Positions 3,948 to 32,683 of a stretch of DNA of 32,683 nt are shown piece by piece. Both the position numbers and the translations under genes were made by a program. The notes below the pieces were generated by a model, which saw only the letters and a list, made by a program, of their open reading frames with translations, did no database searches and had not been told where the DNA came from. Source of the stretch: a virus; the IMG/VR virus record IMGVR_UViG_3300031774_000076, positions 1 through 32,683 of that record. One strand, 5' to 3'. The stretch's first letter is position 1. The number at the start of each line of letters is the position of its first letter.

Positions 3948-4278
3948 TATGCTTCCTCACATATTTATATAACTGATAGGGCGTTAATATAAACGGATTG
4001 TCAATTCCTAACAACTGTTTTGCCAATCCAGTACAGGTATTGAGCATAAACAGACTCTTAACAGGCGGTCTTTGCTCAAATTTTAACAATTTATAGGACT
4101 TGCCTATTATAAGATTCTTCCATAAAGCTAATTCTACCTTGTCATGCTGTCGTGATACAACCATATACACGCCTTTCTCAGGCTTTACTATAAAACAATG
4201 CCGTATCTCCTTGTTTAAAAAGCGACTCCACCAATGCCCATCATCATCTGTAAAAAAAATATATAGCTCAGAAGACAT
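3919..4278 (-). CDS. Conserved podovirus protein with possible permuted papain-like fold
   Basis: This 119-aa protein lies between the large terminase and portal genes. It has a conserved-looking first His (RHCFIV, H27) and a later Cys at the start of a hydrophobic helix (NTCTGLAKQLLGI, C82), then LTPYQLYKYV. His before Cys, with the Cys heading a helix, is the arrangement of circularly permuted NlpC/P60 or LRAT-like papain folds. I infer a possible peptidase, amidase or structural remnant; no enzyme activity is shown. It overlaps the terminase stop by 11 nt, so it belongs to the packaging/portal group. Confidence 0.7.
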   Translation of the reverse strand: MSSELYIFFTDDDGHWWSRFLNKEIRHCFIVKPEKGVYMVVSRQHDKVELALWKNLIIGKSYKLLKFEQRPPVKSLFMLNTCTGLAKQLLGIDNPFILTPYQLYKYVRKHNGIYETKSP

Positions 4279-5722
4279 TAACAGCTACTTTTGCGGTAAC
4301 AGGTTTGGTAAATCCACTCCTTCTCAGGGCTTGACGGCCTTCTCCTTCACCTTGTAAAGCATATTCAAGTGCTTCTACAGGGTGTGAGTATTCATTTTTA
4401 TCAGGTTCATCAGTATATCGTTCATTTGATACCTGTACTCTACGATAACAGAAGCCACCTTGTAGACCTTTACGGATCATTGAGGCTTTTGGTAGTACAG
4501 TAAAGCGTGGTTTACCATCCATACACATCTCTTTCATAGGCACTTCTAGTGCAGCCCTACGCTTTAGAGGGTCATTAGACTGCGTAGGATGACAGGGTAT
4601 TCCTGCTGCACGAATTATTTGGAATGGTGTATCAGAATTAGCCTGATTTTTATTATTACCTGACGGGTCACCCCAACCTTTAAACGTACAGTTAGGGTAA
4701 TGTTCTTCAATGTAGCGTTTTAACGTAGGCGCAAAGTCTACAGCACCACTATCCGTACACACCAGTTCATCAAAACAAACCCATCGTCCTATAGGTGTAC
4801 GTTGAATAAAGGCACAGGCTGGTGTTCGTCCAAAGTCAAAGCCTAAAACAATAGGAATGTCTTTATCTGGTTTAAAATCTAAGTGCTGACAGTGTACTGA
4901 ATCAGTATACATGGGGTGTACAGGTTTACCATTGGATACAAAGCCGTATTCGTTTGCCAGATTAACCTTTATCCAATCATTATCCTTACCGTTCATACCC
5001 CTTTTGTAGTAATCAGATGGTAGGTTTATCAGGTTTTCGGCATTATCATTTAACTTCCAACGCTCACCATCTTTAAAAACACCACCAGCCTGACGATAAA
5101 ACGCCCATCCTTCGGGCCTTTCTATCTCAGCAATCTTAAAATACCAATGATCTTCATCAGGTGCGTTAGTATCACCAATAATGCCATGATGCGTGGGTCT
5201 ACCACCTTCCTTATTCGATGGGTATCTACCATGTCTCAGGTCTAACATATCCAAAACAGCCTTGGAATGCTCCTTAACCTCGTTTAACCATACCCATGTA
5301 GTCTGTATACCCCTAGCCTTCTTAACGTGTTCTGGTCTATCAAAGGCTATAAATACAACGTCACAATGTACTTGTGTGCCATCCTCTAAATTAAACCGCA
5401 AAAAGTGTGTAGGGGGTTCCTTATTGCCCTGCTTGAAGTCTCCTAACTCACCATGTATCTCCAACCAATCCTTAATCGTAGTAGAAAATAACTCACTATA
5501 CGTGTTCCTAGCTGCTATAATACGAGATAAGCGTACACCATAATTCTTATGGTCTTGTTGCATTACAGGCTCTTGTTCGCACATCAAATCAAAGAGTTTA
5601 AGAATACATTGAACAGTCTTACCAGAACCTAATGGCCCCATGATAAAAGAGTTCCTTGACCGACAATCATTAAAGTCCTGCAAGACAGCACCTTGAGGCA
5701 TAAGATTATATTCTACATTCAT
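4268..5722 (-). CDS. terL: Terminase large subunit (packaging ATPase and nuclease)
   Basis: This 484-aa protein is the motor that pumps DNA through the portal and cuts it. A Walker A motif GPLGSGKT is at residues 29-36, and a Walker B-like segment TWVWLNEVKE lies near residue 145, with the acidic pair replaced by N-E. The C-terminal RNase H-like nuclease shows IVLGFDFGRTPACAF (first Asp), then FKGWGDPSGNN and HPVEALEYAL with further acidic residues. The start at 5722 overlaps the upstream stop by 4 nt (ATGA). The family of TerL usually predicts the packaging strategy, but I cannot place it without a tree. Confidence 0.93.
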   Translation of the reverse strand: MNVEYNLMPQGAVLQDFNDCRSRNSFIMGPLGSGKTVQCILKLFDLMCEQEPVMQQDHKNYGVRLSRIIAARNTYSELFSTTIKDWLEIHGELGDFKQGNKEPPTHFLRFNLEDGTQVHCDVVFIAFDRPEHVKKARGIQTTWVWLNEVKEHSKAVLDMLDLRHGRYPSNKEGGRPTHHGIIGDTNAPDEDHWYFKIAEIERPEGWAFYRQAGGVFKDGERWKLNDNAENLINLPSDYYKRGMNGKDNDWIKVNLANEYGFVSNGKPVHPMYTDSVHCQHLDFKPDKDIPIVLGFDFGRTPACAFIQRTPIGRWVCFDELVCTDSGAVDFAPTLKRYIEEHYPNCTFKGWGDPSGNNKNQANSDTPFQIIRAAGIPCHPTQSNDPLKRRAALEVPMKEMCMDGKPRFTVLPKASMIRKGLQGGFCYRRVQVSNERYTDEPDKNEYSHPVEALEYALQGEGEGRQALRRSGFTKPVTAKVAVNVF

Positions 5723-6578: not shown

Positions 6579-6607
6579 TTGACACTTGCAAAGATAAAGA
6601 TTATATT
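6579..6607 (+). promoter_or_regulatory. Strong candidate sigma70 promoter for rightward early block
   Basis: TTGACA (6579-6584) is a perfect -35 box, followed by a 17-nt spacer and TATATT (6602-6607), one mismatch from TATAAT. It lies 36 nt upstream of the first rightward gene. It is the best consensus match I noticed in the genome and fits immediate-early expression of the antirestriction gene. Confidence 0.72.
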
Positions 6608-6642
6608 CGTATTTCATTCATTAGATAAAAGAGAAATTCGAC

Positions 6643-6816
6643 ATGCACATTATAGTTAACATCAAAAACAACTACGGCACTCGTGCCATTTATCCAGTAT
6701 GCGCCAAAGCCCGAAACTTTGCTGCCATTGCTGGCACTGTCACCCTCACTGACTCAGCGATAAGAAATATTAAATTGCTGGGTTACACCATCAATGTCGA
6801 AACTCAAACCATTTAA
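6643..6816 (+). CDS. Small conserved phage protein upstream of ArdC-type gene
   Basis: This 57-aa protein begins MHIIVNIKNNYGTRAIYPVC and continues with FAAIAGTVTLTDSAIRNIKLLGY, a compact mix of strand and helix. Short proteins with the pattern 'NYG.RA.YPVC...FA.IAGT.TLT...I..IK.LGY' occur in other phages and plasmids in my recollection, with no known function. It is the first gene after the strong early promoter and lies 22 nt before the ArdC-type gene. Its 25-nt leader nearly duplicates the leader of that gene. Confidence 0.75.
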   Translation: MHIIVNIKNNYGTRAIYPVCAKARNFAAIAGTVTLTDSAIRNIKLLGYTINVETQTI

Positions 6817-6838
6817 TTAGATAAAAGGATAATTAGAC

Positions 6839-7741
6839 ATGAAAAAGAAATTTAAAAAGAAAGGCGGTGGCGTTACTGACACTGCGGTAATCATGCAGAC
6901 CATCACCGATACGGTTATCAATAACCTTGAGCAATGTACTGGTAAATGGAGCAAACCTTGGAAAAGCATTGCAGACGGTTCAGCGCCTTATAACGCCATC
7001 ACTGGCCGACCTTATCAAGGCATTAATTGGCTTATTTTGGCATCAGCGCCCTACCGGTCACCCGTTTGGCTATCCTACAAACAAGCTCAAGATTTAGGTG
7101 GTTACGTCAAGAAAGGCGAGAAAGCAACGGGCATCACACTCTTTAAGATCATCGAGAAGGAGACTGTTAAGTCTGACGGCACAAAAGAAAAGAACGCCTT
7201 CCCATTACTTCGCGGATTCCCAGTATACAACGCTGAACAGTGCGAGAATCTCGACAAGCTAAAAGTGCGCGAGATTGTTAAAACTGATGTATGCAACGGC
7301 AACGCTAACGTTCTCTCTCAACTCCTCAATATTGACTTACAACATGGCGGTGATAGAGCGTGTTACATTCCATCTATCGATACGATCAAAATGCCCCATC
7401 TGCAAGCGTTCAAAACTGAGTCACATTACGAATCTACTCTCTTGCATGAGATCATACACTGGACGGGATCAAAAGACCGTTTAGCACGTTTAAAGAGCGC
7501 CCGTTTTGGCTCTCACTCATACGCCTATGAAGAACTAGTAGCAGAACTAGGGAGCGCAATGGCTGGCTCTGTTTTGGGTCTACCCTATGAAGGGCTGCAA
7601 CACGACGAATACATCGATAGCTGGCTCTCCGTCCTCAAGGGTGATACCAAGTTTATCGTGGACGCTGCCAAAGATGCCAAGAAAGCGCTGGACTACATTC
7701 TAGAAAATGTTGATATAAATCAGTTGGAAATTGCAGCATAA
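6839..7741 (+). CDS. ArdC-type antirestriction protein with zinc-peptidase domain
   Basis: This 300-aa protein has an ArdC-type N-terminal ssDNA-binding domain, including KWSKPWK, NAITGRPYQGINWLIL and YVKKGEKATGITLFK (about residues 15-120). A C-terminal metallopeptidase domain follows, with HEIIHWTG (H203-E204-H207) and the downstream YAYEELVAELGSA supplying a third Glu ligand. ArdC proteins from plasmids protect incoming DNA from restriction, and the peptidase domain is found in polyvalent proteins that enter with DNA. Placement second in the earliest rightward operon fits a role against host restriction just after entry. The start follows AAGGATAATTAGAC. A GC-rich hairpin follows the stop. 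Confidence 0.9.
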   Translation: MKKKFKKKGGGVTDTAVIMQTITDTVINNLEQCTGKWSKPWKSIADGSAPYNAITGRPYQGINWLILASAPYRSPVWLSYKQAQDLGGYVKKGEKATGITLFKIIEKETVKSDGTKEKNAFPLLRGFPVYNAEQCENLDKLKVREIVKTDVCNGNANVLSQLLNIDLQHGGDRACYIPSIDTIKMPHLQAFKTESHYESTLLHEIIHWTGSKDRLARLKSARFGSHSYAYEELVAELGSAMAGSVLGLPYEGLQHDEYIDSWLSVLKGDTKFIVDAAKDAKKALDYILENVDINQLEIAA

Positions 7742-7757
7742 ACTAAACACAAAACAC

Positions 7758-7775
7758 GACCCCCATATGGGGGTC
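7758..7775. promoter_or_regulatory. Perfect 18-bp GC-rich palindrome after the ArdC-type gene
   Basis: GACCCCCATATGGGGGTC reads the same on both strands. In the transcript it would form a GC hairpin between the ArdC-type stop (7741) and the next ribosome binding site (AGGAG). No U-tract follows, so an mRNA 3'-end stabiliser, attenuator or processing site is likelier than a classical terminator. It is the first of several intergenic hairpins in this operon. Confidence 0.65.
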
Positions 7776-7800
7776 AAACATTACTTAGGAGATTTACACC

Positions 7801-8067
7801 ATGACTAAAATAACAACTTTAGTAAACGAAATAGAGCAGCTCACTGACATTAACGATCATACTGGCGCTGTTTTAAAATTAGCCGAACATCTACAAGCTA
7901 TTCATTATGTCAGAGAACTACTTGACATTGACTCTGCGCATAACGCTATGGGGCATATGATCCCAACTTTAGCTAATCGCAGAACCGACATCAGAAACAA
8001 TTTAATTGAAATTATTGCCCGTCAAATCACATCTGATGAAAACATATTAATTCGATCTGCGTTCTAG
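7801..8067 (+). CDS. Hypothetical helical protein, early block
   Basis: This 88-aa protein is almost entirely helical, with hydrophobic residues at heptad-like spacing (MTKITTLVNEIEQLTDIND, LAEHLQAIHYVRELLDI). There is no membrane segment, cysteine or recognisable motif. The start follows AGGAG at 9-nt spacing. It lies between two GC-rich hairpins in the rightward early operon. A small host-takeover or anti-defence factor would fit the position, but nothing in the sequence shows a function. Confidence 0.75.
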   Translation: MTKITTLVNEIEQLTDINDHTGAVLKLAEHLQAIHYVRELLDIDSAHNAMGHMIPTLANRRTDIRNNLIEIIARQITSDENILIRSAF

Positions 8068-8076
8068 CTGACGATT

Positions 8077-8114
8077 GAGGGTGGTTCCCTCATGAAAAGC
8101 CCCATACGGGGCTT
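8077..8114. promoter_or_regulatory. Tandem intergenic hairpins in early operon
   Basis: Two hairpins stand side by side: GAGGG(TGGTT)CCCTC at 8077-8091 and AAGCCCC(ATAC)GGGGCTT at 8097-8114. They lie between the 88-aa gene and the papain-like gene, just before the latter's ribosome binding site. Neither has a U-tract. Confidence 0.6.
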
Positions 8115-8142
8115 ACTAGATAACCAAACAAAAGGATACAAG

Positions 8143-8637
8143 ATGAAATATTACGACACTACAGAATTGAGCAAAGCTATACGACCTTGTAAGTCTTTCA
8201 AAGATGATTGCGTAATCAGGGCCATAACTTACGCTACAACGTTTTTTGTTAGACCCGATGCTAAAAATCTGTCTGCTTCATATCTAAACTGGCGAAATGT
8301 ATCTCAGCTCCAACTAAAATATGAATCGGTTTTCTGCGAGTTGATGGAATACGCTCATGATTGTGGCGCGTTTCCAAACCACGACAAAGTATGGCAGTCC
8401 TATCTTCCGTCAACTGGATGCATAGATCAACCTTATCACGGCTCTTTTGTTCGCCAACGCTGCCCACGAACCCCAGACGGCAAACTAATAAAACTGAGAG
8501 ACTGGGATTTTGACGGCATAGCCATTGTTAAAAATAGCGGTCATCTTACGTGCGTTAAACATGGCGTTTTGTATGATGACTTTGATTGCCGATATCGACC
8601 CGTCAATTCCTACTGGCAATTGGTAACTAACTGTTAA
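8143..8637 (+). CDS. Putative papain-like (NlpC/P60-like) phage protein
   Basis: This 164-aa protein starts at ATG 8143 behind AAAAGGATACAAG; the frame is open to 8092, but that part spans a hairpin. It shows DDCVIRAITYAT near the N-terminus (C23), then GHLTCVKHGVLYDDF (H134, D145/D146) and RPVNSYWQL at the C-terminus. Cys at a helix start followed far downstream by His in a strand and an Asp matches the order of papain-like folds. The 'DCV.RA...' and '...YW.V' ends recur in small phage proteins of this type. Candidate activities are cleavage of a host protein or peptidoglycan. Function is unproven. Confidence 0.65.
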   Translation: MKYYDTTELSKAIRPCKSFKDDCVIRAITYATTFFVRPDAKNLSASYLNWRNVSQLQLKYESVFCELMEYAHDCGAFPNHDKVWQSYLPSTGCIDQPYHGSFVRQRCPRTPDGKLIKLRDWDFDGIAIVKNSGHLTCVKHGVLYDDFDCRYRPVNSYWQLVTNC

Positions 8638-8644
8638 AGAACGG

Positions 8645-8660
8645 GGGGGCGCAAGCCCCC
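8645..8660. promoter_or_regulatory. GC-rich GNRA-loop hairpin after papain-like gene
   Basis: GGGGGC(GCAA)GCCCCC is a 6-bp all-GC stem closed by a GCAA tetraloop, starting 8 nt after the upstream stop and about 14 nt before the AAGGAA ribosome binding site of the next gene. It lacks a U-tract and matches the placement of the hairpins at 7758 and 8097. Confidence 0.65.
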
Positions 8661-8680
8661 TAAACATAAGGAATTATAAC

Positions 8681-8842
8681 ATGAAAACACTACGAAAAAT
8701 ACACGGTTTTATGACAGGACAACTGCCGATTATTGAGCTATCAGGTTATGAAGTTTTAGGTTCTATTATCGCTGTGCAATTGCTGTTTTTTCTTTTAGCA
8801 GCTATGCTCTTCATACTTCCCTGTCTAGATGGGATTTGTTAG
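8681..8842 (+). CDS. Small single-span membrane protein (53 aa)
   Basis: This 53-aa frame begins MKTLRKIHGFMTGQLP and carries one hydrophobic stretch, VLGSIIAVQLLFFLLAAMLF (residues about 26-45), then a short tail with two Cys. A good AAGGAA site precedes it, with ATG at 8681. It is the last gene of the rightward early block, followed by a hairpin with T-rich sequence. It could be a superinfection-exclusion or membrane-acting early protein; the function is unknown. Confidence 0.68.
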   Translation: MKTLRKIHGFMTGQLPIIELSGYEVLGSIIAVQLLFFLLAAMLFILPCLDGIC

Positions 8843-8872
8843 GCAACGGTTTTCCTATCCGTCATGACACGC

Positions 8873-8917
8873 TGCTGGTGGCGTGGCCTAATCACCAGCA
8901 ATCATTTGTTTTATTTC
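8873..8917 (+). terminator. Candidate terminator of rightward early block
   Basis: TGCTGGTG (8873-8880) pairs with CACCAGCA (8893-8900) around a 12-nt loop and is followed on the plus strand by T-rich sequence (ATCATTTGTTTTATTTC). It lies 30 nt after the last rightward gene and overlaps the 3' end of the converging leftward gene. The minus-strand direction has no U-tract. Confidence 0.5.
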
Positions 8918-31428: not shown

Positions 31429-31986
31429 TTAGCGCCTCACGGCAATAAACGGTTGGCTTCTCAGTGGTTCGGTAGGATGTTGCTGGGAGTCAGTAAATCG
31501 CGCCATACGAGATGCGTTTATATACTTTCCTGCATTGTCTTCTGCTGATGCCGCACTGTCTCGTATAGACGTAGCAAAGTCCATTGCCAATGCATATTCA
31601 ATCATTTTAGCAAAATAAACAGGAAACTCGCCTTCTGGCACATTAGCGGTGTAATCAATGTACAACGACCCATTATAGTTACAATGTAGTTTGTCACTAT
31701 AAATTTGATATGGTATCGCTTGGTTTACATTTATTAGGGTGAGCAAGTCTGTTGGCAACTGATAAATCTGCCGCCATTCGTTACCTATTGGTGTGTCAAC
31801 TGTTAATGCTAACTGCGCCTTACGCCTAGCAAATCCCCATCTAAACTTAGACAGTTCGTTTTGCACAATATTGTCGTAAAGGTTATTAGCAACCGTTTCT
31901 GCGCGAGAGTTCCCACTTAAAGAAGTGACAGGCAAATCACCAATCAATATAAGTGCATTGGAGATTAGTTTAATCTTCTCTGCCAT
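31429..31986 (-). CDS. Tail adaptor (T7 gp11-like tubular protein A)
   Basis: This 185-aa (T7 gp11 is 196) protein begins KLISNALILIGDLPVTSLSG, then AETVANNLYDNIVQNELS, RWGFARRKAQLAL and WRQIYQLPTDLLTL, the four-part signature of the tail tubular A family. Twelve copies join portal and nozzle and help keep packaged DNA in the head. It follows the capsid and its small neighbour, and precedes the nozzle gene. AGAGGC before the ATG gives good initiation; a GC hairpin lies just upstream. Confidence 0.9.
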   Translation of the reverse strand: MAEKIKLISNALILIGDLPVTSLSGNSRAETVANNLYDNIVQNELSKFRWGFARRKAQLALTVDTPIGNEWRQIYQLPTDLLTLINVNQAIPYQIYSDKLHCNYNGSLYIDYTANVPEGEFPVYFAKMIEYALAMDFATSIRDSAASAEDNAGKYINASRMARFTDSQQHPTEPLRSQPFIAVRR

Positions 31987-32004
31987 CAGAAGCCTCTTTA
32001 GAAA

Positions 32005-32020
32005 GGGGGCTTTCGCCCCC
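32005..32020 (-). terminator. GNRA hairpin after the capsid unit, possible attenuator
   Basis: On the minus strand GGGGGC(GAAA)GCCCCC is followed by TTTCT, a short U-tract. It lies between the small capsid-adjacent gene and the tail adaptor gene. A partial terminator here would raise capsid mRNA over tail mRNA, as the T7 T-phi terminator does after gene 10. The U-tract is short, so leakage is expected. Confidence 0.55.
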
Positions 32021-32025
32021 GATCT

Positions 32026-32300: not shown

Positions 32301-32683
32301 CTATGCGGTCTGCGTATATTGGACTTTTACCAAACCACCTTCATCGCGTACAACAGAGCCAGCTTTTAATGCTCCGTTACACAACCATGAAGTTCGTTCA
32401 GCAATCCAGTTAACTTCAGTCTTCATGTCAATACCAATCGCAAGCCCTACGGCTGGACGTTGGAAGAACCATGAATCCACTACGTTAGCTGCAACCGTCA
32501 AACCGCCTTCAGTCCTGTCTTCAAGAATAATAAATTTGAAACCAACCAATGTGTCGATTTCTCCTGAGACAAGAGCTTTAACAGCTTGAAAATCTACAGA
32601 CGTTGCAGTGGTGTCATTTAGAAGACCACTTAAACCAAGCGCATTAACCGCAGCAAACAGTTCCGAATTAGGAACACCTTGAT
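32301..32683 (-). CDS. Major capsid protein, C-terminal part (joins 590-1)
   Basis: The capsid frame enters from base 1, continues at 32556 and ends at the stop 32301-32303. Bases 32557-32683 only repeat 1-127 and hold the same codons. The join reads VSGEIDTLVGFKFIILED without interruption. Further on come NVVDSWFFQRPAVGLAIGID and WIAERTSWLCNGALKAGSVV, ending LVKVQYTQTA, a typical capsid C-terminus in which helix alternates with strand. It precedes the small capsid-adjacent gene by 11 nt. Confidence 0.85.
   Translation of the reverse strand, partial: QGVPNSELFAAVNALGLSGLLNDTTATSVDFQAVKALVSGEIDTLVGFKFIILEDRTEGGLTVAANVVDSWFFQRPAVGLAIGIDMKTEVNWIAERTSWLCNGALKAGSVVRDEGGLVKVQYTQTA
32557..32683. 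repeat. Direct terminal repeat, right copy
   Basis: This is identical to bases 1-127. It should be removed once when circularising the sequence. Read coverage would show whether the repeat is real at packaged ends. Confidence 0.95.

Follow-up and report, generated by a model that had tools for sequence, protein, structure and literature searches.

Between its terminase and recombination operons, a podovirus genome recovered as a single viral record carries a compact block of five genes that runs on the strand opposite to both and includes a homologue of the plasmid anti-restriction protein ArdC. The question raised by this locus is whether the block is a counter-defence cassette, and if so, whether the small genes around ArdC share in that function or serve the phage in some other way.

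The phage genome and the layout of its cassette

The DNA analysed (the window) is the whole of IMG/VR record IMGVR_UViG_3300031774_000076, 32,683 bases in length. Because its first and last 127 nt are identical (1–127 and 32557–32683), it is most likely the circularised, complete genome of a podovirus of 32,556 bp, although assemblers commonly use a word length of 127 as well. The window encodes a head-tail connector (portal; PF12236, 5.9e-78), and other genes were recognised by family match as ERF, YqaJ, a PDDEXK nuclease, a Cro/CI-type HTH protein and a phage lysozyme; a NinG-like nuclease is also encoded. The large terminase (TerL) is encoded by the ORF at 4268–5722, which has 51% identity to BcepC6B TerL and returned no match in a Pfam search. 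No integrase was recognised among the window ORFs, and no phage RNA polymerase was recognised in the window. A search with terL found matches on 431 viral contigs, and the 80 of these that were retained were 86–100% identical; the phage is hence placed by terL similarity in a large group of marine podoviruses. One phage of this group that carries ArdC at the same position (contig L210, DAOUSV010000002.1) was binned with a Piscirickettsiaceae MAG, which is a weak hint as to the host and too thin to name one.

The features of the cassette are listed in Table 1. All five genes have a Shine–Dalgarno-like sequence and codon-usage scores above those of nearly all out-of-frame windows of equal length. 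The preliminary description had called four of them (ArdC and the proteins of 88, 164 and 53 residues), and all four were recovered at the same positions with codon scores in the coding range. An alternative start for the 164-residue protein at 8092 (giving 181 residues) was rejected, as the longer frame would span the intergenic hairpin and the start at 8143 has AAAGGA upstream. The leaders of the 57-residue protein gene (6621–6642) and of ardC (6817–6838) are almost identical (TTAGATAAAAG...GACATG).

Table 1. Features of the cassette, with positions in the window.
Feature	Position	Strand	Properties
Sigma70-like promoter, TTGACA-N17-TATATT	6579..6607	+	11/12 consensus match
57-aa gene P0005, first in unit	6643..6816	+	Full-length homologues in other phages
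ArdC homologue P0001, 300 aa	6839..7741	+	ArdC-N 18-130, MPTase-PolyVal 159-278
GC-rich hairpin directly 3' of ArdC	7758..7775	+	7-bp stem, 4-nt loop, without U tract; -15.2 kcal/mol, z -3.9
88-aa protein P0003	7801..8067	+	Codon score in coding range
GC-rich hairpin, 88-aa/164-aa gap	8097..8114	+	z -2.8
164-aa protein P0002	8143..8637	+	phrog_3754 family; Cys23-His134-Asp145
GC-rich hairpin, 164-aa/53-aa gap	8645..8660	+	-16.0 kcal/mol, z -3.4
53-aa single-span membrane protein P0004	8681..8842	+	19-residue hydropathy maximum 2.73
Candidate weak terminator	8873..8900	+	9-bp stem then U-rich stretch (to 8916); -12.9 kcal/mol, z only -1.1

The promoter had been described as the strongest of the sequence and as lying directly before ArdC. 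It is indeed the top site of the + strand, but it is equalled by a − strand site at 741, and the gene of the 57-residue protein lies between it and ardC. When the local 161 bases were shuffled, a score of 11 was reached in 0.8% of cases. Across 22 relatives, the highest-scoring site ahead of the cassette averaged 9.6 of 12, compared with 8.6 in shuffles. The cassette thus appears to have a promoter of its own, in the sense of a consensus match from which activity is predicted.

All three hairpins in the gaps between the cassette genes have 4-base loops and lack a U tract on the sense strand, and only five distinct perfect hairpins of such strength occur in the whole window. A similar GC-rich hairpin with a 4-base loop is found at 32005–32020, in the gap (31987–32025) upstream of a − strand gene (31429–31986). 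Hairpin density in the cassettes of relatives, a count that includes some true terminators with T runs, is 0.28 per kb compared with 0.055 per kb in the rest of those loci, an approximately fivefold difference. An Rfam search gave no match. The gap hairpins may stabilise or process the cassette transcript. The candidate terminator overlaps the end of the convergent PDDEXK gene.

The ArdC homologue

On sequence grounds P0001 can be assigned to the ArdC family with certainty. It matches PF08401 (ArdC-N; 1.4e-30, 106.5 bits against a cut-off of 22.6), PF18818 (zincin-like MPTase-PolyVal; 2.3e-39) and phrog_7245, an ‘anti-restriction protein’ family (2.5e-69), and a phmmer search of the PDB aligned residues 18–292 with ArdC of plasmid R388 (6i89/6sna) at 2.4e-47. 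The HEIIHW motif comprises residues 203–208, and H203, E204, H207, E231, E232 and Y258 align with H201, E202, H205, E228, E229 and Y255 of R388 ArdC, in which H201, H205 and E229 are the metal ligands and E202 is the base, with E228 and Y255 close by (PMC7213743). The earlier identification of an ArdC-type protein with a HEIIHW peptidase is therefore upheld.

P0001 resembles the ArdC proteins of R388 and pSa in its two domains, its size of ∼300 residues and its HExxH motif, paired Glu residues of the glutamate helix and downstream Tyr, and differs from R388 ArdC in a Lys/Gly-rich N-terminal extension. R388 ArdC prefers single-stranded DNA, which it shielded against HhaI, and is required in the recipient for passage of the HsdRMS system; the E229A variant is still functional, showing that the peptidase is dispensable for anti-restriction (PMC7213743). 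Transfer of this function to the phage is not automatic, because R388 ArdC belongs to a conjugative plasmid and protects incoming conjugative single-stranded DNA, whereas the window protein belongs to a tailed phage that, judging from its genes, would inject double-stranded DNA. The peptidase residues are conserved in the ArdC proteins compared from the same position in related phages, and as they are kept despite being dispensable in R388, a second role for ArdC is suggested.

Among the ArdC proteins of phrog_7245, those of Pelagibacter phage HTVC011P (gp02), Roseobacter phage CRP-804 (gp1) and Caulobacter phage phiCbK have 33–39% identity to P0001 over most of the protein. The closest homologues (49–53% identity) are encoded by uncultured phages (L214–L217), and identity is lower (45%) to the ArdC proteins at the same position in the podovirus group of the window phage itself. 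ArdC opens a + strand block in L214, L215 and L216, in which small genes and replication genes come after it; it lies ahead of a DNA polymerase in L214 and is followed in the L215 block by a primase-helicase, the polymerase and helicase names being read off translations. A single clade of the same-position ArdC proteins together with that of L226 was not rejected by the AU test (p 0.18). An AU test that seemed to reject a single origin (p 4e-6) did so through omission of the nested L226 sequence, and independent acquisitions are therefore not claimed. An ArdC-like region was also found within a 3145-codon open frame (L016, 1249–10683, + strand), a giant protein of the polyvalent type.

The cassette is probably transcribed early, soon after infection. 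This timing is invisible in the sequence itself and is proposed because of the positions of ArdC homologues in other phages: in CRP-804 it is the first gene, before those of the integrase and RNA polymerase, and in HTVC011P it is the second, before that of the integrase. In both, ArdC is thus among the first genes, whereas in the window it lies between the terminase and recombination operons. As no phage RNA polymerase was recognised, early genes are not set apart from others by a sigma70 promoter.

The 164-residue protein and its small neighbours

P0002 matches phrog_3754 (2.8e-9) and has no match to any named family, peptidases included, in Pfam or NCBIfam; 37 members of its family likewise gave no significant Pfam match. 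By way of Geobacillus phage GBK2, the family extends to Lak, Butyrivibrio, Sinorhizobium and gut phages. It is present on at least 400 viral contigs, as counted in a scan with a closer subset of the family, the family-wide alignments (A1 and A2) being too diverse. An alignment of 37 members shows D22, R26, G125, H134, G141 and D145 to be invariant and C23 to be present in all but one (36/37). Hence, the Cys-His-Asp arrangement, first noted for its resemblance to papain-like folds, is conserved across the family and is not a chance pattern. In one family member (L141, 4007–4381, + strand) the conserved Cys is replaced by Tyr (GDYTVRA).

AlphaFold2 models were obtained for P0002 (pLDDT 80.2, pTM 0.77) and for a relative, L131 (pLDDT 95.6, pTM 0.88). 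In the model of P0002, C23 lies in helix 20–36, H134 starts strand 134–139 and D145 follows strand 142–144, so that the predicted order of elements, from Cys at the start of a helix through His to Asp, is that of papain-like enzymes. Neither model had a match in the PDB at E<=0.001. For L131, Josephin-2 (6pgv) was first in the Foldseek PDB list at a non-significant score (E 0.2, probability 0.63, TM 0.48/0.41), and Tae4, MCF, TssM and PatoxP are among the 19 matches that follow. In Josephin-2, Tae4 and TssM, as in the family, Cys stands at a helix start and is followed by His at a strand start and then by Asp, but they have no sequence match to it and the fold similarity has an E value of 0.2. 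A search of BFVD added ∼20 phage proteins with a probability near 1, nearly all uncharacterised. Structure prediction thus bears out the order of elements expected of a papain-like protein and gives no significant match to a known structure; P0002 is probably, though not provenly, a papain-fold (josephin-like) cysteine enzyme.

P0002 shares with phrog_3754 and GBK2_35 the spacing of Cys, His and Asp, the DC..R motif and the G...H......G...D motif. It differs from these proteins by an insert that follows the Cys helix, and identity to them is only ∼20–34%. It also lies alongside ArdC, outside the conserved neighbourhood of the family, which in the best-sampled branch (L132–L205) consists downstream of proteins of 157, 77 and 270 residues (phrog_21718, 22984 and 16490) that are uncharacterised. 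Because that branch sits in such a neighbourhood, there is no general tie between the family and anti-defence loci, and no member was present in the other ArdC-bearing loci examined. The proposal that two peptidases in one operon are unusual agrees with the latter result, but this is weak evidence because the ArdC peptidase was dispensable in the one published test (PMC7213743). No relevant paper was found on the function of josephin-like phage proteins.

Homologues matching the 57-residue protein over its full length are encoded by Roseobacter phage CRP-1, Pelagibacter phage HTVC024P, MW202496 and contigs L037 and L212. Its gene lies immediately upstream of ardC in L212, an unrelated phage, and, in CRP-1 and HTVC024P, near the start of the genome. 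In MW202496 (L209, 2790–4027), likewise unrelated, it is part of a block of small genes that points away from terL and towards a converging Holliday junction resolvase gene, and the layout around it is the same as in the window. The 88-residue protein appears to be lineage-specific, as a search of viral contigs, family libraries and cultured phages gave only identical copies in L002/L003/L036; matches in Pfam and PADLOC (MEIOC and JetC) were below the cut-off and were taken as helical noise. The hydropathy profile of the 53-residue protein agrees with its earlier designation as a membrane protein. No homologues of it were found in viral contigs or family libraries beyond near-identical contigs. 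Proteins of 50–64 residues with a hydrophobic span are present in 16 of 23 cassettes of relatives and have no detectable sequence match to that of the window.

The variable slot and the role of the cassette

In relatives recovered with terL, the gene order is recombination genes (YqaJ and an ssb-like gene), an opposite-strand block, and then terS, terL and the portal gene. These flanks are kept in 23 relatives (terS/terL, and YqaJ/ssb-like where the contig reaches that far), whereas the content of the cassette between them differs. The 23 cassettes, which are partly sequenced, yielded 176 predicted proteins, a count that takes in some + strand genes beside the block. These proteins group into 97 families, mostly confined to a single contig. 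The slot is hence a hypervariable accessory locus, of varying content between conserved flanks, whose genes are exchanged among phages. It resembles phage morons and anti-defence islands in its fixed position, variable content, own promoter and orientation opposite to its neighbours, and differs from them in that it was never empty in the relatives seen.

ArdC is encoded in the slot of L055/L057, L068, L095, L097 and L210, and further in L218–L225 and L237, some of which are earlier contigs under new ids. In two relatives (L062 and L065) a C5 cytosine methyltransferase takes its place (PF00145, 7.2e-9 for L062). The block thus behaves like a counter-defence or accessory locus, in support of the preliminary description. 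No anti-restriction gene was recognised in 16 of the 23 cassettes, which carry mostly small genes of unassigned function, and a winged-helix gene (HTH_39) is frequent in the slot. A family of proteins of ∼250 residues, apparently phrog_2554, occurs both in the cassette slot and, in other phages, immediately after ArdC (L051 4339–5097, L061, L115, L212 4496–5197, L215 3119–3919, L009 and L010).

We consider it fairly probable that 6579–8900 is a separately transcribed, exchanged accessory cassette in which ArdC shields phage DNA from restriction. Host RNA polymerase would read the cassette from its own promoter soon after infection, and ArdC, by homology with the R388 protein, would bind single-stranded DNA and protect phage DNA intermediates from host restriction enzymes. 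The zincin domain may have a protein target, but the anti-restriction effect of the plasmid protein does not depend on it. The 57-residue protein would be a recurrent companion of early regions, the 164-residue protein probably a small cysteine hydrolase with a papain (josephin-like) fold that modifies a host protein, and the proteins of 88 and 53 residues lineage-specific accessory proteins. Counter-restriction through ArdC appears well grounded, and the recurrence of ArdC or a C5 methyltransferase in the same slot of relatives supports it, the protection itself being argued from homology. A broader proposal, in which the 164-residue family consists of josephin-like enzymes that cleave or deconjugate a host protein against defence and the slot is a general counter-defence island in which more such genes could be picked out by position, is quite improbable.

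The cassette could instead serve host takeover, the ArdC peptidase and the 164-residue enzyme cleaving or modifying host regulators of transcription, SOS or proteolysis rather than countering restriction. The full retention of peptidase residues that R388 anti-restriction does not need points to such another use, as do the lack of an assigned function for most cassette genes and the proposal that ArdC-like peptidases of jumbo phages cleave host proteins (PMC7824862). The C5 methyltransferases in the slot of two relatives suit restriction evasion better, and R388 ArdC left HhaI uncleaved and had one pull-down partner (PMC7213743); we regard takeover as unlikely. Since the ArdC-N domain binds single strands (PMC7213743, PMC5512222) and the cassette adjoins ERF, YqaJ and the PDDEXK nuclease, ArdC might also be a phage single-strand binding protein that aids ERF/YqaJ and has no anti-restriction role. 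Against such a replication or recombination accessory, ArdC runs on the other strand behind a promoter of its own and is missing from the majority of relatives in which YqaJ is retained; this reading is highly improbable. Small one-span membrane proteins often serve in exclusion, and their presence in so many of the relatives' cassettes, with the Cro/CI-type HTH gene of the window, would fit a lysogeny-related or selfish moron that acts, for example, in superinfection exclusion and offers the incoming phage no counter-defence. That no integrase was recognised among the window ORFs and that ArdC recurs early in the genomes of other marine podoviruses argue against it, and it has the slimmest chance of these alternatives.

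On the preferred reading, of an exchanged accessory cassette with a protective ArdC, ArdC itself is an ordinary, well-supported further example of a known protein. Nothing beyond ArdC is yet tied to anti-defence, and the proteins of 57, 88, 164 and 53 residues are candidates only; the cassette is nevertheless a good place to seek new phage means of counter-defence. If this reading is correct, a fixed position in the genomes of abundant marine podoviruses, the group represented by the 431 terL contigs, would serve as a listing of genes for counter-restriction and host takeover, and a broad family of phage proteins that lacks annotation would gain a testable enzyme prediction centred on Cys23, His134 and Asp145.
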